DNA from: Rhodococcus sp. KBS0724
GTDB taxonomy: Bacteria; Actinomycetota; Actinomycetes; Mycobacteriales; Mycobacteriaceae
Direction: 5' to 3'
NCBI RefSeq assembly: GCF_005938745.2
Contig: NZ_VCBX02000001.1
Coordinates: 3,920,501 to 3,984,500 of the forward strand
DNA length: 64,000 nucleotides
Position numbers and translations under genes: made by a program. Of the stretch, positions 47,084 to 59,973 are shown piece after piece. How positions within the stretch are numbered: position 1 is the first letter of the stretch; each line of letters begins with the position of its first letter. The notes under the pieces are model-generated. The model was not told where the DNA came from, made no database searches, and saw only the letters and a list, made by a program, of their open reading frames with translations.

Positions 47084-48145
47084 TTAGTGCCCCGAGTTTG
47101 AAGTTGTTTTACAGTCAGCTTTCGCCAGGATCCGCTCGGCGGTTTTCGTCCACACGAACGGCTGCGCCCGCGGATTCCACCCGTTGATGAAGTCCCGAAT
47201 CTTGCTCGTCAGTTCTCGGACACTGCGGAAAGTGCCGCGGTGGATCGCTTGGCGTTCGATGATCCCGAACCACACCTCGACCAGGTTCATCCACGACGCC
47301 GATGTCGGGGTGAAATGGACGTGAATCCGCGGGTTCGCCGCCAACCACTGACGGACCTCGGCCTTCTTGTGGGTGGCATAGTTGTCCATCACCAGATGCA
47401 GTTCCTGCTTCGGATACGCCCGCGCCACATGCTTGAGGAACACCAGAAACTCCTGGTGACGGTGCCGGGGCCGGCAGATCCCGGTCACCTCTCCGGTTAC
47501 GATCTCCAACGCAGCGAACAAGGTGGTGGTGCCATGGCGAACGTAGTCGTGTGTCTGCTTCTCGGGGATTCCGATCTGCGTCGGCAACGTCGGCGCAGTC
47601 CGATCCAACGCTTGAATTTGCGATTTCTCGTCCACGCACAGGACGATCGCGTTCTCCGGCGGATCGAGATACAACCCGACGATGTCGGTGACTTTCGCGA
47701 CGAGTTCCGGATCGGTGGAGAACTTGAATGTCTCACTGCGCCACGGCTGCACCCCGTACTCACGCCAAATCCGTGCGACCGTCCCGTACCCGATCCCCAA
47801 ATGTTTCGCAAGCAGACGCGAACTCCATTGTGTGACACCGTATTTCTTCGGTGGCGGCATCAAGGTCGCCGAGACGATCTCCCGATGATCGAGACTACGC
47901 GGTCGGCCCGAACGCGCATCATCCTCGAGGCCGGCCAACCCGTCCGCGTCGTAGCGAGCGCGCCAGGAAATCACCGTCGGCCTCGACACCCCGACCAACT
48001 CCGCAATCGACGAATTCGACTCACCTTGAGACGCGAGCAATACAATCCGTGCCCGCGCCGCACCCGAAGGAATCGACCTCGACCGTACCCGTCTGGCCAA
48101 CTCGAGATCGTCGCCGTCTCGCAAGATCAGGGGCTTAATCCGCAT
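47084..48145 (-). CDS. IS630-family transposase
   Basis: A 353-residue transposase. The N-terminal HTH is SIAELVGVSRPTVISWRARYDADGLAGL with GRPRSL. The DDE catalytic core is seen in CVDEKSQIQALDR, LVMDNYATHKK and TPTSASWMNLVEVWFGIIERQ. Length and motifs match full-length IS630/Tc1-like enzymes. The frame is uninterrupted, so the element may be active. It sits between a LuxR-type regulator and a segment of unknown small genes. Confidence 0.93.
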   Translation of the reverse strand: MRIKPLILRDGDDLELARRVRSRSIPSGAARARIVLLASQGESNSSIAELVGVSRPTVISWRARYDADGLAGLEDDARSGRPRSLDHREIVSATLMPPPKKYGVTQWSSRLLAKHLGIGYGTVARIWREYGVQPWRSETFKFSTDPELVAKVTDIVGLYLDPPENAIVLCVDEKSQIQALDRTAPTLPTQIGIPEKQTHDYVRHGTTTLFAALEIVTGEVTGICRPRHRHQEFLVFLKHVARAYPKQELHLVMDNYATHKKAEVRQWLAANPRIHVHFTPTSASWMNLVEVWFGIIERQAIHRGTFRSVRELTSKIRDFINGWNPRAQPFVWTKTAERILAKADCKTTSNSGH

Positions 48146-50665: not shown

Positions 50666-50677
50666 TTGACAGATACA

Positions 50678-50697
50678 TGTATATACAGGACTATACA
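50678..50697. promoter_or_regulatory. Shared hut/gdh operator, copy 1 (lyase operon)
   Basis: TGTATATACA, a perfect 10-bp palindrome, is followed directly by GGACTATACA, whose complement TGTATAGTCC is a second TGTATA half-site one helical turn away. TTGACA at 50666-50671 lies just upstream, so a bound protein would cover the promoter. The same composite occurs upstream of hutU and the glutamate dehydrogenase gene. Confidence 0.75.
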
Positions 50698-50782
50698 TTC
50701 ATAAATAGTGAGATGGAGCACACTGCGAGGGACCTGCGTGCACGTTCCCAACAGGCGTTCCACGCCGATCGACGGAGTTCTG

Positions 50783-52237
50783 ATGACTGAACCACTTCTG
50801 GTGGATGATCCGGAAGTAGCGCTGGATGGCTCGACACTGACCGTGGGACGGGTAGCGGGACTCGCAGGGGCGCCCATCGTCGTGTTGCCTACCGTTCGGG
50901 CGCTCGAACTGACGCTACAGTCCTGGGAGACAGCTGTCGGAATAGCGGCCCGTCAGCCCGTGTATGGGAGAACCACCGGAGTTGGTGGGAATCGCGATAC
51001 CTCGGTGGCAGACGGTGCCGAGCAGGACCTTCGTTTGTTGCGAAGCCATGCGACAGGGTCAGGACCGGCGCTACCCGATCACATTGTGCGCGCGGCCATG
51101 ATTATCAGGATCAACCAGATTCTCAATGGCGGATCCGGAATGCACCCCGATATCGTCGGTGCGCTGGTGGATTCCGTCGCGTCCAGTCAACTACCGATCG
51201 TCCATGCGCGTGGAGCGATCGGGACAGGCGACCTCAGCGCATTTTCCGAGATTGCGCTCGGATTGATGGGAGAAAGTGTGCGAAGTGACGGGTCAGTTCA
51301 CACCGCGTGGGCCCCACATCAAGGTGATGCCTTGCCACTTATCTCGACAAATGCCATGACAGTCGCGATCGCCAGTAACACGGCCGTCGACGTCGCGGAC
51401 TGGCTGCGGCACTGTCTTGTTGTTAGCGTCCTGTCGACCATCGCTACCCGAAGCTCATCGGAACCCTTTGCTGCACAGGTGCAATCGGCAAGAAAGCACC
51501 CTGGACAAGAAGAAGTTGCTGCTCGGATTCGTGAACTTCTTGCGCCGCACATTGTCGTAGCCGCGAGAGTGCAGGACTCGTTCGGGTTTCGCGCATTGCC
51601 ACAAATTCTGGGAGCGACGTGGCAGGCACTCCAACGATTGAATGTGACGTTAAGCGTCGAGATGAACTCGTCGTCGGAGAATCCCCTGGTATCGGTCGAG
51701 GACGACAAAGTCTTTCACAACGGTAACTTTCACGGAATGCCCATCGCATTGGCTATCGACGAAGCGAAGTTGGCGTTGGCCAGTGCCGCACTGCTGTCGC
51801 AGTGCCGACTCGCGAACCTCTCGGATCCGAGCGTCACCGGCCTGCGTGCGTTTCTGGCCGACGGGCCCGCGGGTAGTAGCGGGACGATGCTGCTCGAGTA
51901 CACGACCTCGGCAGCCATCGCGGAAATTCGGTCGTCCGCTGCACCGGGTTCGCTGGGGCATACGGTTATTTCTCGAGGGACCGAGGACCATGCCAGCTTC
52001 GCCTCTCAGGCCGCAACACAACTCACTGACATCCTTGTTCAATCAAGGCTCGTGCTTGCGTGCGAATTGATTTCGGCAATCCGAGCGCTGAGGCAGCAGA
52101 ACCGTGTGCTCGATCCGGTCACCGAGTTGGGTGCCTACGTGCTGCGTGCCCAAAGCGTTCTCGACGCGCGCACCGAGGATCGGCCGCTCAGTGCAGACCT
52201 CGCTGCCGCGGTGACATTTCTTGCGCGAACTCCATGA
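50783..52237 (+). CDS. hutH: Histidine ammonia-lyase family protein with a Gly-Thr-Gly triad
   Basis: A 484-residue aromatic amino acid lyase. ATG 50783 follows GGAG; the frame upstream is not homologous. Family positions are largely kept: VYGRTTGVGG (catalytic Tyr), LRSHATG (His), VQDSFGFR (Gln, Arg; the usual Tyr is Phe), NGNFHGMPIA (Phe) and RGTEDHASF (Glu). The segment that normally carries Ala-Ser-Gly and becomes the MIO prosthetic group reads AIGTGDLSAF, i.e. Gly147-Thr148-Gly149. Gene order with a hut-type transporter and hutUIG makes histidine the likeliest substrate, but the altered triad leaves activity and specificity open. Confidence 0.8.
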   Translation: MTEPLLVDDPEVALDGSTLTVGRVAGLAGAPIVVLPTVRALELTLQSWETAVGIAARQPVYGRTTGVGGNRDTSVADGAEQDLRLLRSHATGSGPALPDHIVRAAMIIRINQILNGGSGMHPDIVGALVDSVASSQLPIVHARGAIGTGDLSAFSEIALGLMGESVRSDGSVHTAWAPHQGDALPLISTNAMTVAIASNTAVDVADWLRHCLVVSVLSTIATRSSSEPFAAQVQSARKHPGQEEVAARIRELLAPHIVVAARVQDSFGFRALPQILGATWQALQRLNVTLSVEMNSSSENPLVSVEDDKVFHNGNFHGMPIALAIDEAKLALASAALLSQCRLANLSDPSVTGLRAFLADGPAGSSGTMLLEYTTSAAIAEIRSSAAPGSLGHTVISRGTEDHASFASQAATQLTDILVQSRLVLACELISAIRALRQQNRVLDPVTELGAYVLRAQSVLDARTEDRPLSADLAAAVTFLARTP

Positions 52238-52312
52238 CTTCAGCGAATCACCAGAGCTTCACTCCCCTCCCGAGTGGGTCAGCACTCGGTTCGACACGAA
52301 AGTAGTACGCCG

Positions 52313-53428
52313 ATGATCAAATTCGACAAGGTAAGCAAAGCGTATCCAGACGGTACGGTCGCCGTCGACAAGCTCGATCTCGAATGTCCGACAGGAAGGA
52401 TCACTGCTCTTGTCGGCCCCTCCGGCTGTGGTAAGACCACCTCGCTGCGAATGATCAACAGACTGATCGAGCCGACTTCGGGAACTATCTCTCTGGACGG
52501 GGAATCGACGTCGGGTATGGATCCTGCATTACTGCGTCGCCGCATCGGCTACGTGATCCAGCATGCAGGTCTGTTTCCCCATCGGACCATCGTGGACAAC
52601 ATCGCCACTATGCCGCGACTTCTTGGCAAATCGAAGAAGGAATCACGCTCGCGTGCAATGGAGTTGCTGGAGACGGTTGGACTCGCGGTCAATTTCGCAG
52701 ACCGGTATCCTTGGCAGCTGTCCGGTGGGCAACAGCAGCGAGTCGGGGTGGCTCGAGCTTTGGCGGCCGACCCGTCCTTCATGTTGATGGACGAACCCTT
52801 CAGTGCGGTGGATCCGGTGGTTCGTGGTCAGTTGCAGGACGAATTCCTACGTTTGCAGAAGGAGCTAGGAAAGACGATTATCATCGTCACCCACGACATC
52901 GACGAGGCTCTCAAGCTGGGCGACCAGGTGGTTGTTCTCCGGACCGGAGGCATCCTGGCTCAAGCGGCGACCCCACTCGAATTGTTGACGCAACCCGCAG
53001 ACGAATTCGTGGCTGATTTCGTGGGGCGAGACCGTGGCTATCGATCATTGGGATTTGCAACATTGGATGGAAGTTTGCCCACCTCCCCCGAACCCATTGC
53101 GCACCTGGGAGATACGGCGGAGTCTGCGCGCGGTGCAACATCGGATAACTGGCTACTAATCGTCGACTCCGGAGGGAAGCCGCTCGGCTGGGTGGAGCCT
53201 GCTCGGCTCACCGGCATCATCCGGCCTGATGATCTGAATCTCAGTGGCACGGTTGCGAACTCCAGCGGAACGATGCGCGCTCTGCTGGACGCAGCGCTGT
53301 CGGCACCAAGCAAGCGAGGCGTAGTAGTGGACGACCACGGCGAACTCATCGGCGCGGTTACCGCTCATGCGGCAATTGACGCCATCGAGGCGGCAGACTT
53401 GGTCTCTGCAGGGGTCGGTGCCCAATGA
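52313..53428 (+). CDS. ABC transporter ATP-binding protein (OpuCA/HutV type)
   Basis: A 371-residue ATPase starting at ATG 52313 (MIKFDKVSKAYPDG). Walker A GPSGCGKTT, Q-loop YVIQHAGLFPH, signature LSGGQQQR, Walker B FMLMDEPF and H-loop VTHDIDEA. Residues about 250-371 form a CBS-domain tail as in OpuCA. It energises uptake by the two permeases that follow with ATGA overlaps. The quaternary-amine transporter family includes the histidine transporter HutXWV of rhizobia and pseudomonads. Placed between a histidase-family gene and hutGIU, it most likely imports histidine. Confidence 0.9.
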   Translation: MIKFDKVSKAYPDGTVAVDKLDLECPTGRITALVGPSGCGKTTSLRMINRLIEPTSGTISLDGESTSGMDPALLRRRIGYVIQHAGLFPHRTIVDNIATMPRLLGKSKKESRSRAMELLETVGLAVNFADRYPWQLSGGQQQRVGVARALAADPSFMLMDEPFSAVDPVVRGQLQDEFLRLQKELGKTIIIVTHDIDEALKLGDQVVVLRTGGILAQAATPLELLTQPADEFVADFVGRDRGYRSLGFATLDGSLPTSPEPIAHLGDTAESARGATSDNWLLIVDSGGKPLGWVEPARLTGIIRPDDLNLSGTVANSSGTMRALLDAALSAPSKRGVVVDDHGELIGAVTAHAAIDAIEAADLVSAGVGAQ

Positions 53429-54075
53429 ACTTCGAATGGCTCGGACGACAATCCGACCGCATCGTCGATCTTGTGGGGTGGCACATCCTGTTGTCGCTGA
53501 TTCCGTTGGTGATCGGACTGGTCGTGGCACTGCCGATCGGTTGGGTGGCGCATCGCAGTCGACGCCTGCACCCCTATGTAGTGGGGACCGCCGGATTGCT
53601 CTATACGATTCCGTCGTTGGCGCTGTTCGTATTGTTGCCACCGCTACTGGGAACCAAGATATTGGATCCGATGAACATCATCGTGGCGCTCACCGTTTAC
53701 ACGGTGGCACTCTTGGTGCGGGTTGTTGCGGACGCGCTGGACGCGGTTCCGCCGGAAACGGTCTTGGCGGCAACCGCGATGGGTTATCGCCCGTATCAAA
53801 CCTTGCTGAAAGTACAGTTGCCGGTTGGTGTTCCGGTGATCTGTGCCGGACTTCGAGTGGCTGTCGTCTCCAATGTCAGCCTGGTCTCGCTCGGGGCGCT
53901 CTTGGGAATCCCGCAGATAGGCTCACTGTTCACGCAGGGGTTCCAACTCCGGTTCTACACCCCCATCATCGCGGGTATCGCGCTGTGTCTGGTGCTGGCC
54001 CTCATTCTCGACCTCCTCATCATGTTGGCGAATCGGCTGTTGACGCCGTGGACCCCGAAAGTGACGACATCATGA
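53425..54075 (+). CDS. ABC transporter permease (OpuCB type)
   Basis: A 216-residue inner-membrane protein with about six hydrophobic segments. It has the permease EAA-like loop AATAMGYRPYQTLLKVQLPVGVPVICAGLR. Its ATG overlaps the ATPase stop (ATGA), and its own stop overlaps the next permease (ATGA). It forms the translocation path together with the second permease. Confidence 0.9.
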   Translation: MNFEWLGRQSDRIVDLVGWHILLSLIPLVIGLVVALPIGWVAHRSRRLHPYVVGTAGLLYTIPSLALFVLLPPLLGTKILDPMNIIVALTVYTVALLVRVVADALDAVPPETVLAATAMGYRPYQTLLKVQLPVGVPVICAGLRVAVVSNVSLVSLGALLGIPQIGSLFTQGFQLRFYTPIIAGIALCLVLALILDLLIMLANRLLTPWTPKVTTS

Positions 54076-54809
54076 TCGACTTCCTGCTCGATTCCGCTCA
54101 TTGGAGTGGCTCTGACGGTATCCCGACTCTGGTTCTGCAGCACCTCATGTACACCTTCTTGGCGCTCGTCGTCGCCGCAGCCATCGCGATTCCTCTCGGC
54201 CTGTACATCGGCCATACCGGCAGGGGTTCGGTAGTGGTTGCGGGGCTGGCGAATTCACTGCGCGCGTTGCCCACGATCGGCCTGCTGATCCTGTTGGTCC
54301 TGATCATTGCCCCCTCGTTCTCGAATCGACTCGCCTATTTGATTCCCAGCTTGATCGTTCTGGTATTGCTGGCGATCCCACCGATTCTTACGAACACGTA
54401 CGCCGGCGTACGTGCCGTCGATCAAGCGGCTGTCGACGCGGCGCGTGGAATGGGTTTTCGATCCATGCGCATTCTTACCGAGGTGGAAATTCCTTGTGCA
54501 TTGCCATTGATGCTCTCCGGTGTCCGCAGCGCAGTGCTCCAGATCGTTTCCACTGCAACGGTTGCCGCATACATCTCGCTGGGAGGTCTCGGACGGTTGC
54601 TCATCGACGGCAAGGCCCAGAGCGACTACGGGCAAATGGCCGCCGGCGCTGTTCTGGTTTCACTCATTGCACTCGTATTCGATGTGGGAATCGGCGCGTT
54701 GACGACTCGAATCGTCTCGCCTGGACTGACCAGGCGAGACCGCTCGAAGGTCAAGCAGTCGATCATAGCGCCGACGCCCACCGCCGTACCGGCACCTACA
54801 CCCATCTAA
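54072..54809 (+). CDS. ABC transporter permease (OpuCD type)
   Basis: A 245-residue membrane protein from ATG 54072, overlapping the previous gene by 4 bases. Its EAA loop is DAARGMGFRSMRILTEVEIPCALPLMLSGVR. It is paralogous to the first permease. A Pro/Thr-rich C-terminal tail (PTPTAVPAPTPI) extends beyond the last helix. The longer frame to 53367 is out of phase with the first permease and is not coding. Confidence 0.9.
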   Translation: MIDFLLDSAHWSGSDGIPTLVLQHLMYTFLALVVAAAIAIPLGLYIGHTGRGSVVVAGLANSLRALPTIGLLILLVLIIAPSFSNRLAYLIPSLIVLVLLAIPPILTNTYAGVRAVDQAAVDAARGMGFRSMRILTEVEIPCALPLMLSGVRSAVLQIVSTATVAAYISLGGLGRLLIDGKAQSDYGQMAAGAVLVSLIALVFDVGIGALTTRIVSPGLTRRDRSKVKQSIIAPTPTAVPAPTPI

Positions 54810-54820
54810 GGACATTCGAC

Positions 54821-55729
54821 ATGAAGAAGTTGTTGACGGCCGCTCTGGTCGGCGCCACTGTAGTAGCGCTCTCCGCGTGCGGAATCGGCAAGGATCCCCT
54901 GGCTGCGGGCGGTGGTGGTAGCAGTGAGGGCGCGATCGTCATCGGTTCCGCGGACTTTCCCGAGAGTCAATTGATTGCGACCATATACGCAGAAGCATTG
55001 AAGGCCAATGGCATAGATGTGTCCGAGAAGTTCAATATCGGTAGCCGGGAGCTGTACATTCCGGCGCTGCGCGACGGTTCCATTGATCTGATCCCCGAAT
55101 ATTCGGGGGCTCTGTTGCAGTATCTCGACAGCAAGACCACGGCCACTGCGTCGGACGAGGTGGCCACCGAACTAGAAGCCAAGCTTCCCGCCGGCTTGGT
55201 GGCTTTGGAATCTTCACCCGCGGAAGACAAGGACGTCCTCGCCGTCAAACAGGAAACCGCCGACAAGTATTCGCTCGAGACCGTCGAAGACCTCGTGGAG
55301 CATGCCGACAAATTGACTCTCGGTGGGCCACCTGAGTGGAAGACGAGGGAAAACGGTGTGGCCGGTTTGAAGAGTCGATACGGTTTGACGTTTCGGGAGT
55401 TCCTGGCGCTCGATGCGGGTGGGCCGTTAACGCTCAATGCACTGCTGAGCGGTCAGATCCAGGTTGCGGATATCTTCAGCACCGACCCGTCGATGCGGTC
55501 CGAGAATCTGGTGGCGCTCGAGGATACGAAGCACCTGTTTCTTGCTGAGAACATCACGCCCGTTATCAACGAGTTGAAGGCGCGTGAGGATGTCCGTCAG
55601 GTGCTTGCCGGCGTCTCGGCAGCGTTGACCACGGAAGATCTGATCGAGATGAATCAGCGTGTTGCAGACCTGGACGACATGACGGATATCGCTCAGGAAT
55701 GGTTGCAGGAGAACAGTTTGATGCCTTGA
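54821..55729 (+). CDS. Substrate-binding lipoprotein (OpuCC/QAT type)
   Basis: A 302-residue exported protein: signal MKKLLTAALVGATVVALSAC with lipobox LSAC, then a Gly/Ser linker and the family start IVIGSADFPESQLIATIYAEAL, later PEYSGALLQYL. ATG 54821 is 11 bases after the permease stop. It would deliver the ligand, probably histidine by context, to the permeases. OpuC-type proteins for betaine have an aromatic cage; whether those residues are kept cannot be judged without alignment. Confidence 0.88.
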   Translation: MKKLLTAALVGATVVALSACGIGKDPLAAGGGGSSEGAIVIGSADFPESQLIATIYAEALKANGIDVSEKFNIGSRELYIPALRDGSIDLIPEYSGALLQYLDSKTTATASDEVATELEAKLPAGLVALESSPAEDKDVLAVKQETADKYSLETVEDLVEHADKLTLGGPPEWKTRENGVAGLKSRYGLTFREFLALDAGGPLTLNALLSGQIQVADIFSTDPSMRSENLVALEDTKHLFLAENITPVINELKAREDVRQVLAGVSAALTTEDLIEMNQRVADLDDMTDIAQEWLQENSLMP

Positions 55730-55751
55730 CCGGGCTTGGTCCGGATGCACA

Positions 55752-55794
55752 AACGGCCGCCGCGCCAGGAAGTCTTCCTGGTGCGGCGGCCGTT
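55752..55794. terminator. Bidirectional terminator between transporter operon and hutG
   Basis: A 21-bp stem (AACGGCCGCC and onwards, with AGGAAG at the tip) has one G-T/A-C mismatch and almost no loop. It lies between convergent stops at 55729 and 55811 and ends in TT on each strand. Very stable. Confidence 0.85.
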
Positions 55795-55810
55795 GCGATC
55801 GAGGAGATGG

Positions 55811-56785
55811 TCAGAGCGGACGTGCTACGGGGACGTGCTTGGTGACTACCCTGTGGATCAGTCTCGCCGCAGCGCGTGCAGTTCGATTGTCGATATCCAG
55901 GGACGGATTCAGTTCGGCCACGTCGAGAACGGCGAGTTTTCCACTTTTCGTTACCCGGTCGCACACGTACTGAATTGTTTCCATCGGAACGCCGTACGAC
56001 GCCGGGGCGCTGACACCGGGGGCGACTGAGGCCGGAAGAACGTCGAGATCGATGGTGAGATAGACGATGTCAACGCTGCCGAGGAAGCCGTCCAGAAAGT
56101 GCTCCACGTGGTGGCGGTCGCCGACACCGCACTGATCGTCCAGGAGGTACGTCACTCCGAGATCGTGTGCTGTGTCGAACAGAGCCGTGGTGTTGCTCGG
56201 TTGGCTGATGCCGACGACGGCATACCGATGCGAGGTGTCCGCAGCGGCTTCGTCCTCGGCGATCTGACAAAAGGGTGTGCCGGAACTCGGGATCAGATCT
56301 GCGCGGAGGTCGAAATGCGCATCGAGGTTCAAGATGCCGAGAACCGTGTCAGGTGTGCGAAGCGCCGCATCGGCCACCCCGAGGTATGTCCCGTATGCAA
56401 TCTCATGCCCGCCCCCGAGCACTACGGGGAAGTGTCCGTCATCGAGCGCCGTACATACAGCAGTGCCAAGGGTTGTTTGACCCGCTTCGAGATTTTCACC
56501 GGACACCACGACGGTGCCTGCGTCCTGCAGAATCAATGGTTCTGCCAGAGCCATCGACGACAACGCCGACCGCAGTGCCGCCGGGCCGTGGGCGGCACCG
56601 CGACGGCCTTTGTTTCGGCGCACGCCTTCGTCGCTCGAGAAGCCGATCAGCAGACAATCTCCGGGAGGGAGGTTCGCACTGTGGGGTTGCATCGCTTGGT
56701 GCCACCGCAGGTGTTCTGGACTGAGCCCGTCTGACCGGCCAGTCCACGGTTTGGGCGCGATGTCGACGGTGATGGCATGTGCCAC
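55811..56785 (-). CDS. hutG: Formimidoylglutamase
   Basis: A 324-residue ureohydrolase (arginase fold) that cleaves N-formimidoyl-L-glutamate to glutamate and formamide. Mn ligands are visible in VVLGGGHEIAYG, NLDAHFDLR and TIDLDVLPASVAPG. The N-terminal DEGVRRNKGRRGAAHGPAAL is typical of HutG. It is the third gene of hutU-hutI-hutG, 22 bp after hutI, so this organism uses the one-step formamide-producing route rather than HutF. Confidence 0.92.
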   Translation of the reverse strand: MAHAITVDIAPKPWTGRSDGLSPEHLRWHQAMQPHSANLPPGDCLLIGFSSDEGVRRNKGRRGAAHGPAALRSALSSMALAEPLILQDAGTVVVSGENLEAGQTTLGTAVCTALDDGHFPVVLGGGHEIAYGTYLGVADAALRTPDTVLGILNLDAHFDLRADLIPSSGTPFCQIAEDEAAADTSHRYAVVGISQPSNTTALFDTAHDLGVTYLLDDQCGVGDRHHVEHFLDGFLGSVDIVYLTIDLDVLPASVAPGVSAPASYGVPMETIQYVCDRVTKSGKLAVLDVAELNPSLDIDNRTARAAARLIHRVVTKHVPVARPL

Positions 56786-56807
56786 AGGGACCTCCCGATA
56801 ATTGATG

Positions 56808-57998
56808 TCAATAAGTGGTGGTGAGTTGCCCGTTCTTCCACACGTCCCGCACCAGCGGAACTCCCGGCCGGTAGGCCAGATGGAGATAGGACGGGGCGTC
56901 TAGGGATATCGCGTCGGCGCGGGTTCCGATGCTCAGAGTCCCGATGTCGGTGCGTTGCAGGGCCTGAGCGCCGCCGGCGGTGGCCGACCAGACGGCTTCG
57001 GCCGGGGTCATGTGCATGTCGCGCACCGCTACGGCGATGCAGAACGGAAGACTGGTGGTGTAGCAGGTGCCGGGATTGCAGTCGGCGCCTAAGGCAACTG
57101 TGACGCCGGCATCGAGCAGTGCGCGAGCATCAGGGTATTTGTTGCGGGTCGAAAAGTCCGCGCCAGGCAGCAGAGTTGCGACAGTGGAACTCTGAGCCAG
57201 GGCGTCGATGTCGTCTGCGGTGACGTAGGTGACGTGATCGACCGATGCAGCACCCATCTCGACAGCAAGTTGCACTCCGGGGCCTTCGCCGAGTTGGTTT
57301 CCGTGCACACGCGGGATCAGCCCAGCGGCGACGCCGGCACTCAGAACAGCGTGTGCCTGTTCACGATTGAATGCTCCGCGCTCACAGAAGACATCGATCC
57401 ACTTCGCGTGCGGTGCGCAGGTTGGGATCATCTCGTCGCACGCCATCGCGACGTAATCATCAGCGCGGCCGGCGAATTCGGGTGGAGGAACGTGAGCAGC
57501 CAACAGCGTTACCTCGTCGGTGAACTGCCCGGCAATCAGCGTGCTGCGCAGTTCGCTCTCCGTGTTCTGTCCGTATCCGGTCTTGCATTCGACGGTGGTA
57601 CTGCCCGAGCGCAAGGACTCATCTAGTAGGCGTCGGACGTTGGCCCTCAACTCGTCTTCGGTGGAGCGGCGGGTGGCCTCGATGGTGTTGCGAATGCCGC
57701 CAGCCGCATACTTCTCGCCGGCCATGCGGGCGGCGAACTCCTCAGCTCGTTCACCGCCGAACACCAAGTGCGAGTGGCTCTCCACAAAGCCGGGAATGAC
57801 TGCCCGGCCGCCGATATCCTGACCGATATCGGCAGCCGGGGCGTCAGTGGAATTGCCGACCCATACAACGACGCCTGCGTCGAAAACGACTGCGGCATCG
57901 CGGAGTACGCCCAATTTTCCCTCACCGAGAGACGGGTCGTTGGTGACGAGCGTTCCGATGTTGGTCAGAACTGTGGTTCGAAAACCGTTCGTGGTCAC
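56808..57998 (-). CDS. hutI: Imidazolonepropionase
   Basis: A 396-residue amidohydrolase converting imidazolone-5-propionate to formimidoylglutamate. The metal motif HSH is in PGFVESHSHLVFGGER, followed by ECKTGYGQ, VHGNQLGEGPGVQLA, SVDHVTYV and ALGADCNPGTCY (catalytic Asp). GTG 57998 starts the gene, 37 bp after hutU. Length and motifs are complete. Confidence 0.93.
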   Translation of the reverse strand: MTTNGFRTTVLTNIGTLVTNDPSLGEGKLGVLRDAAVVFDAGVVVWVGNSTDAPAADIGQDIGGRAVIPGFVESHSHLVFGGERAEEFAARMAGEKYAAGGIRNTIEATRRSTEDELRANVRRLLDESLRSGSTTVECKTGYGQNTESELRSTLIAGQFTDEVTLLAAHVPPPEFAGRADDYVAMACDEMIPTCAPHAKWIDVFCERGAFNREQAHAVLSAGVAAGLIPRVHGNQLGEGPGVQLAVEMGAASVDHVTYVTADDIDALAQSSTVATLLPGADFSTRNKYPDARALLDAGVTVALGADCNPGTCYTTSLPFCIAVAVRDMHMTPAEAVWSATAGGAQALQRTDIGTLSIGTRADAISLDAPSYLHLAYRPGVPLVRDVWKNGQLTTTY

Positions 57999-58035
57999 TT
58001 TATTCCTTGTCTCGGGAGTGGGCGTCGGAGATGGT

Positions 58036-59709
58036 TCAGTTTTCGTTCATCGGGATACGTACGCCCCGTGTGGCAGCTGTGTCGAGAGCGTGGTCGTAGC
58101 CCGCGTCCGCATGGCGGATGACGCCCATTCCCGGATCGTTGGTGAGAACGGCTTCGAGCTTGCGCGCCGCCAGATCGGTACCGTCTGCGATGCACACCTG
58201 ACCTGCGTGCATCGACCGCCCCATGCCCACGCCGCCACCCTGGTGCAGTGATACCCAGGATGCGCCGGAAGCTGTGTTGACCAGCGCGTTGAGGAGTGGC
58301 CAGTCCGCGATTGCGTCGGACCCGTCGATCATGGACTCCGTCTCGCGATAAGGGGAGGCAACGGAACCCGAGTCCAGGTGGTCTCGGCCGATGGCGATCG
58401 GTGCCGATAGTTCTCCGGACGCGACCATCTCGTTGAACTTGAGTCCGGCAAGATGCCGTTCGCCGTATCCGAGCCAGCAGATGCGGGCCGGGAGGCCTTC
58501 GTAGGCAACCTTTTCACCTGCCATGGTGATCCAGCGACGCAGGTGCTCGTTGTCCGGGAAGAGTTCGAGAATGGCCTTGTCGGTTGCCTCGATATCCTTC
58601 GGGTCGCCCGACAGGGCCGCCCAGCGGAAGGGGCCGAGGCCTTCCTCGAAGAGCGGACGGATGTACGCCGGAACAAATCCGGGAAAGTCGAAGGCACGGT
58701 CGTACCCGGCTTTGCGGGCTTCGTCGCGGATGGAGTTTCCGTAGTCGAAGACCTCGGCGCCGGCGTCCATGAAACCGACCATGGCTCGGACGTGTGCGGC
58801 CATCGCGTCACGCGAGTCCTCGGTGAACTTCTGCGGATCCTTCTTCGACATGGTCTTCATGTCGCCGAAGTCGATGCCGATCGGCAGGTAGGCGAGGGGA
58901 TCGTGCGCCGAGGTCTGGTCGGTCACGATGTCGATGGGGGCCTTCATCTCCAGCAGCGCCGGGAAGATCTCTGCCGCATTGCCTTCGAGGCCGATGGAGA
59001 GCGGCTTCTTCGCATCGCGTGCCGCGGTCGCCAGTTCGAGCGCGTGCTCGATACTCTCGGCCTTGGTGTCGAGATACCGGTGAGCGATGCGACGGTCGAT
59101 GCGCGTGACGTCACAGTCGACGCAGATCGCTACACCGTCGTTCATCGTGACGGCGAGCGGCTGAGCACCACCCATACCGCCGAGTCCGGCTGTGAGCGTG
59201 ATGGTTCCGGCGAGCGAACCGTTGTAGCGTTTCTTGGCGATGGCGCCGAAGGTCTCGTAGGTACCCTGCAAGATTCCCTGAGTTCCGATGTAGATCCACG
59301 AGCCTGCCGTCATCTGGCCGTACATAGTCAAGCCGAGGTCTTCAAGCCGTCGGAACTCCTCCCAGTTCGCCCAGTCGCCCACCAGATTCGAGTTGGCGAT
59401 CAGTACACGGGGCGCCCACTCGTTGGTGCGAAAGACACCGACCGGCTTACCCGACTGGACCAGCATGGTCTCGTCGTTCTTCAGCGTCTTCAGCGTGGCG
59501 ACCATGGCATCGAAGGCTGCCCAACTACGTGCTGCGCGACCGGTTCCGCCGTACACGACAAGGCTGTCGGGATGCTCGGCAACATCGGGGTCGAGGTTGT
59601 TCATGAGCATCCGGAGGGCGCCCTCCTGCTGCCATCCGAGTGTGGTGAGTTCAGGGCCGCGGGGAGCGCGCACGAGGCGGGCCTCGTGGCCGGGGGTACT
59701 GATTTCCAT
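58036..59709 (-). CDS. hutU: Urocanate hydratase
   Basis: A 557-residue NAD-dependent urocanase. ATG 59709 follows AAGGAGATCAAC; the frame upstream is leader. NAD-binding and active-site segments: [58 protein letters not shown] and [17 protein letters not shown]. First gene of hutUIG; the shared 20-bp operator lies 153 bases upstream, in the gap with the divergent glutamate dehydrogenase gene. Confidence 0.95.
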
Positions 59710-59861
59710 GTTGATCTCCTTGCTGTGCCGAAGTGTGGTGCGGTCGGTGCGTCGGTCCAAGTGCTCGTTTCGACGCAGGGAGTCAGTTCGACACGAGTCG
59801 CTCCAACGGAGGTGCTGATGCGGACCGTTTGTGTGCTGAGTCACTGCCACCGAAATTTAAA

Positions 59862-59881
59862 TGTATAGGCCTGTATATACA
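59862..59881. promoter_or_regulatory. Shared hut/gdh operator, copy 2 (hutUIG)
   Basis: TGTATAGGCC followed by the palindrome TGTATATACA. Relative to hutU it has the same orientation as copy 1 relative to the lyase gene. It differs from copy 1 at one position of the left half. Confidence 0.75.
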
Positions 59882-59953
59882 ATGTCAATGAACATGCTTG
59901 AATGCGTCCCGTGTGACGGTTGTGCCTAGGCTCACATTCTGAAATGATCATCT

Positions 59954-59973
59954 TGTCTAGTCCTGTATAGACA
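59954..59973. promoter_or_regulatory. Shared hut/gdh operator, copy 3 (glutamate dehydrogenase)
   Basis: TGTCTAGTCC followed by TGTATAGACA, 60 bases before the dehydrogenase ATG. It shares 17 of 20 positions with the other copies and lies 72 bp from copy 2 in the same intergenic region. Confidence 0.7.

Follow-up and report, generated by a model that had tools for sequence, protein, structure and literature searches.

In Pseudomonas, HutC acts through a TGTA-N2-TACA palindrome and has urocanate as its effector (PMC12977541). In P. fluorescens SBW25, a strongly bound region of 28 bp in the hutF promoter is described as having 'three half-sites'. Pseudomonas HutC is reported to assemble as far as a tetramer on the hutU promoter, but at hutF of P. 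aeruginosa no further than a dimer (PMC12977541). A HutC site at hutIG of P. aeruginosa is reported to bear little likeness to the consensus (PMC12772324). Among the members of proteobacterial HutC regulons is a transporter of COG1457, akin to those for purines and allantoin (PMC5343134). The term 'glutamate dehydrogenase' is absent from the main texts of both PMC12977541 and PMC12772324 and occurs once, for NtrC, in PMC5343134. In the papers examined that mention both HutC and Rhodococcus, the name HutC either denotes a subfamily or turns up in the reference list. In Corynebacterium resistens, a relative of Rhodococcus, the hut genes are controlled by HutR, an IclR protein from a regulator family other than that of HutC. 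A study of GntR-family regulons by Suvorova et al. in 2015 may contain related predictions, so we claim no priority for the regulon. A three-half-site HutC operator is already reported from Pseudomonas.

We analyzed a window of 64,000 nucleotides from Rhodococcus sp. KBS0724, in which an earlier note had described three 20-bp sites shared by the promoters of hutUIG, a lyase-transporter operon and an NAD-glutamate dehydrogenase (GDH) gene. All three were confirmed by direct reading (Table 1). The genome scan that the note had proposed, using TGTMTAGNCCTGTATANACA against all 7,254,422 bases (3 contigs) at up to three mismatches, returned these three places only, each with 0 mismatches, and the same search with the backwards sequence gave 4 matches. 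Although the window's base composition predicts only about 0.00009 exact matches, the 20-mer pattern was derived from these very sites, so that independent support has to come from conservation. The bare palindrome TGTMTAKACA likewise occurs at exactly three places genome-wide, all within the three 20-mers, as compared to about 9 per strand expected from the window's base composition and 9 per strand for a backwards control that was not dinucleotide-matched; selection against stray palindromes in the genome was considered. Each operator has three half-sites, a palindrome plus an extra half-site. The TGTA-N2-TACA operator is present at the hut promoters, and the GDH palindrome, TGTATAGACA, deviates from it in one base. 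Two HutC dimers may be accommodated by this tandem layout, as the earlier note had suggested.

Table 1. Features of the locus, in window coordinates.
Feature	Position	Strand	Sequence or basis
Possible -35 (TTGACA), lyase promoter, 20 bases before TATACA	50666-50671	+	Direct reading
HutC-type composite operator, lyase-transporter operon	50678-50697	-	TGTATAGTCCTGTATATACA; read directly, genome scan
Palindrome of the lyase operator	50678-50687	-	
Extra half-site (TGTATA) of the lyase operator	50692-50697	-	
CRP/GlxR-like box beside lyase operator	50707-50722	-	TGTGCTCCATCTCACT
MIO-less aromatic-amino-acid-lyase family protein	50783-52237	+	Start inferred by comparison with orthologues; reading frame already open at 50708
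ABC transporter ATPase, ProV-like	52274-53428	+	TIGR01186 305.1 bits, just under cut-off 326.6
ABC transporter permease (BPD_transp_1)	53367-54809	+	
Substrate-binding protein, OpuAC family	54494-55729	+	True start probably later than 54494
hutG, formimidoylglutamase	55811-56785	-	TIGR01227 290.7 bits, cut-off 229.15
hutI, imidazolonepropionase	56808-57998	-	TIGR01224 356.1 bits, cut-off 298.15
hutU, urocanate hydratase	58036-59709	-	TIGR01228 894.4 bits, cut-off 375; start 59709 inferred, ORF open to 59850
CRP/GlxR-like box beside hutU operator	59830-59845	+	TGTGTGCTGAGTCACT
HutC-type composite operator, hutUIG	59862-59881	+	TGTATAGGCCTGTATATACA; read directly, genome scan
Possible -35 (TTGACA), hutU promoter	59883-59888	-	Direct reading and site contexts
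CRP/GlxR-like box beside GDH operator	59921-59936	+	TGTGCCTAGGCTCACA
HutC-type composite operator, GDH and hutC behind it	59954-59973	+	TGTCTAGTCCTGTATAGACA; read directly, genome scan
NAD-glutamate dehydrogenase, 1548 aa	60034-64000, continuing to 64680 past the window	+	
hutC ORF, 287 aa as called	64677-65540, just past the window	+	True start may be later

The earlier note had stated that no such regulator is encoded in the window. This is literally true, but the search for the nearest GntR/HutC homologue found a HutC gene directly behind GDH, and the idea of a distant or missing regulator was rejected. Its product scores 279.4 bits against the HutC equivalog TIGR02018 (cut-off 220), falls short of the narrower model NF011575 (PRK14999; 294 versus a cut-off of 424), and contains GntR (PF00392, 67.5 bits; cut-off 27) and UTRA (PF07702, 94.6 bits; cut-off 23.8) domains. 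The hutC ORF overlaps the GDH stop by 4 bases, which suggests that hutC shares the GDH operator. At 18 genus loci, the gene upstream of the regulator is GDH, directly and on the same strand, in 15, hutH in 2 and a divergent hutU in 1. Because the genome encodes six UTRA proteins above the cut-off, another UTRA-type GntR protein might bind the sites instead. This is very improbable, since the gene of the GDH-linked regulator follows a target gene, its product exceeds the HutC threshold, the runner-up among the matches listed for this genome reaches 139.1 bits, and regulator and site co-occur in relatives.

A comparison among Rhodococcus relatives, also proposed earlier, found the site at up to two mismatches in 18 of 28 genus genomes, whereas the backwards sequence matched in 3 of them. 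Site and regulator were both present in 17 of these genomes and both absent from 9, with one genome (74% complete) having the regulator only and one the site only (p = 1.4e-5, kinship ignored). Among 121 family genomes, 7 of which also belong to the genus set, 19 held both, 1 HutC only, 2 the site only and 99 neither (p = 6e-19, kinship ignored). Thus, the site was carried by 19/20 family genomes with HutC above the cut-off versus 2/101 others; the backwards control at two mismatches matched in 10/121. The exceptions were G015, where an exact site precedes an amino-acid permease and no HutC exceeds the cut-off, G094, with HutC and no site, and G050, with a two-mismatch site and no HutC. The linkage to GDH is conserved as well: of the 18 genus genomes with a site, 16 have one upstream of a GDH ORF or across the start that was mechanically called for it, which favors the proposed co-control of GDH with the hut genes. 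The orthologous lyase is preceded by the site in all ten genus genomes that have it. Flanking genes were listed for 16 sites, not all of them named, and some other sites were recorded as coordinates only. The predicted targets in relatives fit the pathway. They comprise hutU, GDH, hutI, hutC, the MIO-less lyase and two kinds of permease, one for amino acids and one of purine/cytosine type, which were recognized from their N-termini and, in three examples, assigned by Pfam.

The site contexts, 52 distinct 70-base stretches from the retrieved loci, many of them orthologous and including one (L188) that is probably a chance match, also bear on promoter structure. In 28 of the 52, TTGACA lies at the operator end away from the TATACA half-site and forms a promoter-like pair with it, and the half-site of the lyase operator overlaps a possible -10 (TATACA on the + strand). 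The spacing is 20 bases in 20 of these 28 contexts, which is long for a standard promoter. The 20-mer could be nothing more than a conserved -35/-10 sequence. However, GDH-only sites stand in the opposite orientation to the gene and without TTGACA, yet retain TGT[AC]TA, so that the half-site is not merely a -10. Presence of the 20-mer tracks HutC across the family, and the genome holds three copies only. On the HutC co-occurrence and the GDH-only sites, we rejected the promoter-only explanation as highly unlikely.

A conserved CRP-like box, absent from the earlier note, adjoins each operator. It flanks 46/52 site contexts, where the shuffled controls keep base composition only. Compared with the CRP/GlxR palindrome TGTGA-N6-TCACA, these 46 boxes, kept at up to two mismatches, all have TGTG and in 45 cases TCAC, but 40 of them carry C or T at the fifth position.

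From the sites, the identity of the regulator, the gene order, conservation and co-occurrence, all established by sequence, we infer binding, the inducer, repression and co-transcription. The 20-mers are very likely operators of the HutC encoded behind GDH. Against this reading stand the three exceptional genomes, the matches of the backwards control at two mismatches, the NF011575 score, the deviating base of the GDH palindrome, the long promoter spacing and the atypical site reported at hutIG. A HutC dimer would read the palindrome TGTATAkACA, and the third half-site, one helical turn away, would add a further subunit or dimer. In front of the lyase operon and hutU, the operator overlies the presumed -10, so that bound HutC would keep RNA polymerase out. 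The protein would be released by urocanate, the established inducer of HutC in Pseudomonas, and this release would switch on together the importer and lyase, which would make urocanate, hutUIG, which would convert urocanate to glutamate, and GDH, which would deaminate glutamate. We propose that HutC limits its own synthesis, since hutC lies behind the GDH operator. The regulon resembles that of Pseudomonas and other Proteobacteria in its HutC repressor, TGTA-N2-TACA element and hutU target, and also in having three half-sites (there at one promoter), autoregulation (predicted here) and, in some regulons, a purine-transporter-like permease (PMC12977541, PMC5343134). It differs in that hutC here follows GDH and the GDH operator, the targets include a MIO-less lyase with a betaine importer, and a CRP-like box stands beside the sites.

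The lyase operon had been described as histidine catabolic, which is probably incorrect: the lyase has no motif for forming MIO, and its operon includes a betaine-type importer. Its score against the HutH model TIGR01225 is 273.5 bits, far below the cut-off of 539.15, whereas a canonical relative (L093) reaches 634.6. In place of the MIO-forming Ala/Cys-Ser-Gly, it has Gly-Thr-Gly in a loop one residue shorter, and none of the homologues listed, the top 120 of 1317 with the protein from the window among them, has the MIO serine. By alignment, the loop is one residue short in 80/80 related actinobacterial loci (76 GTG, 3 GTA, 1 GTS), none of which has the serine, while 19 other genus lyases, taken from 24 lower-scoring matches with one fragment (L101) left out, are all CSG or ASG. 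The Asn195 stretch is altered to an S[ST]NA-like sequence in most of the 80 loci.

These features argue against the simplest alternative, namely that the protein is an ordinary, divergent histidine ammonia-lyase in an operon for histidine uptake and breakdown. That alternative would explain why the genome's only PF00221 protein accompanies an intact hutUIG. It would also agree with the retention of residues aligned to Tyr53, His83, Gln277, Arg283, Phe329 and Glu414 of the active site in the Pseudomonas enzyme, with family-profile scores that place histidine ammonia-lyases above ergothionase, and with structure-based identities of 29% to 1b8f versus 25% to 6s7j. On the other hand, 9/10 orthologue-bearing genus genomes also hold a second lyase, 32-35% identical (G004 has fragments only), and the importer belongs to the betaine class. 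We regard an ordinary histidine ammonia-lyase as improbable.

Instead, the lyase is probably a trimethylamine-lyase of the hercynine/ergothioneine type, yielding urocanate for HutUIG. A lyase fold without MIO and a loop without the extra residue are as in ergothionase (6s7j, Treponema denticola), although the loop has Glu there and Thr in Rhodococcus, and the Rhodococcus lyase shows higher sequence scores and identity to histidine ammonia-lyases and is linked to hutU. In a single fold comparison, the lyase model was closest to 6s7j by a narrow margin. The transporter combines an OpuAC binding domain with an ATPase and a permease, as do EgtU/OpuC importers, of which it is a distant relative, and the best solved relative of its binding protein is the ergothioneine transporter EgtUC. 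Ergothioneine might be the substrate in place of hercynine. However, EgtUC leads other quaternary-amine binders by only 86.4 versus 84.6 bits, the loop alignment is weak by itself (E 0.24), and the fold ranking is close. The genome's sole urocanase-family protein passes the hutU cut-off and, at 657.9 bits, misses the cut-off of 930 for thiourocanate hydratase, so that, within the urocanase family searched, the route from ergothioneine is not visible. Ergothioneine is therefore an unlikely substrate, and hercynine is our tentative assignment, at slightly under even odds. No title among those searched on hercynine or histidine-betaine breakdown concerned a hercynine lyase.

At the 80 related loci, some with short flanks, the importer was found in 42 and a urocanase nearby in 38; one of the hutU matches is only 35% identical, as are two of eight hutH matches at 35-36%. 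The HutC regulator is linked to the lyase family in only 1/80, which makes the HutC link a matter of Rhodococcus and its near kin. We propose, with a probability of about 0.5, that a widespread and unrecognized histidine-betaine pathway exists in Actinobacteria, comprising a betaine-type importer, a MIO-less trimethylamine-lyase annotated as a histidine or aromatic ammonia-lyase, and hutUIG, and that it is tied here to NAD-GDH by one HutC regulon. Because no canonical HutH remains, it would have wholly replaced histidine breakdown in this strain.

An operator found by eye thus becomes part of a small regulon whose repressor can be named, and the prediction is that cells couple the deamination of glutamate to nitrogen sources of the histidine type. 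The analysis also points to a family of annotated ammonia-lyases without the cofactor motif, in all 80 loci and all 120 listed homologues examined. Should these enzymes prove to release trimethylamine from histidine betaines, many database names would be wrong, and soil actinobacteria would consume hercynine or ergothioneine and emit trimethylamine.

The three 20-bp operators claimed by the earlier note, before the lyase-transporter operon, hutUIG and the NAD-glutamate dehydrogenase (GDH) gene, were found in the sequence exactly as described. A scan of the 7.25-Mb genome, which the same note had called for, restricted TGTMTAGNCCTGTATANACA to these three places, each with no mismatches, when up to three mismatches were allowed, while the same pattern read backwards gave four matches. 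The bare palindrome TGTMTAKACA also occurred at three places only, each inside an operator. Approximately nine occurrences per strand would be expected genome-wide from base composition, and none was seen outside the three operators.

HutC and its operator are already known. We analysed 52 distinct contexts, taken from this genome and its relatives, which, although picked by the pattern itself, showed strong conservation at all 20 positions, highest in the palindrome and dropping in the flanks. Half-sites lie at positions 1-6 (TGTATA), 11-16 (TGTATA) and 15-20 (TATACA), so that the 20-mer can be read as a palindrome plus a third half-site ten bases away. Of the 52 contexts, 28 have TTGACA on the side of the palindrome (0.12 on average in shuffled sequences, maximum 2), and in 20 of these 28 it is spaced from TATACA by 20 bases, suggesting that the lyase and hutU sites overlap a presumed -10 element. 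The sites that serve GDH only lack TTGACA and retain the half-site, which argues that this half-site serves the repressor.

A CRP/GlxR-like box, TGTGA-N6-TCACA with up to two mismatches, accompanies 46 of the 52 operators within about 50 bases on the half-site side (0.45 on average in shuffled sequences, maximum 3), against 0/52 on the palindrome side. The best box ended 4-17 bases from the operator in 45 of 52 contexts, and the window shows no general enrichment of such boxes (17 observed against 24 expected). The usual form of the box, TGTG[CT]-N6-TCAC, also written TGTG-N7-TCAC, resembles the consensus of cAMP-dependent CRP/GlxR regulators, but the first half deviates from the classic GTGA. 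Two CRP-type HTH matches are present in the genome, and the candidate box suggests a tie between the operators and carbon status. We found no description of such a partner box beside a HutC operator in our searches of open-licence papers.

Boxes and regulator gene associated with the three operators
Feature	Position	Details
CRP/GlxR-like box, lyase operator	50707-50722	
CRP/GlxR-like box, hutU operator	59830-59845	
CRP/GlxR-like box, GDH operator	59921-59936	
Regulator ORF	opens 64677, past window	287 aa; GntR + UTRA domains

The nearest HutC homologue, which the earlier note had proposed seeking, is one of six UTRA-domain proteins in the genome and lies just beyond the window, where its ORF overlaps the end of GDH (64680). 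It passes the NCBI HutC model (279.4 versus a cut-off of 220 bits) but falls below that of a second model, NF011575 (294 versus 424). The third operator therefore stands before two genes, GDH and that of the regulator, and their overlap suggests that they are probably cotranscribed. Of 18 genus loci of the regulator, 15 have GDH upstream of it on the same strand; a description of hutC behind GDH was not found in our searches of open-licence papers.

Comparison of promoters across the genus, also suggested earlier, showed that the site (up to two mismatches) is kept in 18 of 28 genomes, compared to 3 of 28 for the backwards control. The regulator orthologue was likewise present in 18 of 28: both occurred in 17 genomes, the regulator only in one (G017, 74% complete), the site only in one (G015) and neither in nine. 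Among 121 family genomes, the site was found in 21 and HutC in 20, counted only above the cut-off since GntR proteins below it match in nearly all genomes; 19 had both, G094 had HutC only, and G015 and G050 had the site only. The G050 site, with two mismatches, may be a chance match, as the backwards control matched in 10 of 121 genomes. G015, which lacks HutC above the cut-off, carries an exact site before an amino-acid permease gene (L015:1501-1520, L051:10167-10186); this site is either an orphan or served by another reader.

Of the 18 genus genomes with a site, 16, that of the window among them, have one before a GDH ORF or covering the start that was assigned to this ORF mechanically, and in several genomes GDH shares it with a divergent hutU. 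In every one of the ten genus genomes that carry the lyase orthologue, a site was found no more than about 160 bases upstream of the region matched. Further targets in relatives include an amino-acid permease (followed by hutH in G007 and G016), a purine/cytosine-type permease, hutI and hutC.

Gene order is colinear between this genome and its relative G001, save for approximately 9.8 kb between hutU and GDH in G001 (L041:9679-19498) that have no counterpart here. The genes in this G001 segment include a canonical hutH as well as those for an IclR regulator, an FAD oxidase and a purine/cytosine-type permease. Thus, this strain has either lost the ordinary first step of histidine breakdown or never acquired it. 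The genome encodes one urocanase and, besides the MIO-less lyase, no second PF00221 protein; of the ten genus genomes carrying the orthologue, nine have a further lyase match, which in G004 consists of fragments only. An IS630-family transposase gene (47084-48145) precedes the lyase operon by 2.5 kb.

The binding protein encoded with the lyase has EgtUC chains as its best solved relatives (E 1.6e-23), with choline-type binders so close behind that support is limited to the quaternary-amine class. Among the best 80 of 568 confirmed actinobacterial lyase loci, with flanks of up to 10 kb, a binding-protein relative was found in 42, hutU in 38 (37 with at least 60% identity), the two together in 25, hutH in 8 (6 with at least 60%) and the HutC regulator in 1. 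EgtD, the histidine trimethyltransferase that makes hercynine, lay within 10 kb of the lyase in 11 of the 80 (L127 and L114 among them), all from Actinoallomurus, Actinomadura and one Streptosporangiaceae bin; the one EgtD scored reached 365.8 versus 290.9 bits for TIGR03438. We found no description of a MIO-less lyase as a HutC target in our searches of open-licence papers.

The gene identities, sites, linkage and conservation are shown here; binding and repression by HutC, its inducer and the lyase substrate are inferred. Histidine betaine would be imported and then split into trimethylamine and urocanate, which would release HutC from all three operators. The hutUIG products would then yield glutamate, and GDH would convert it to 2-oxoglutarate and ammonium, while HutC co-produced with GDH would reset the switch.
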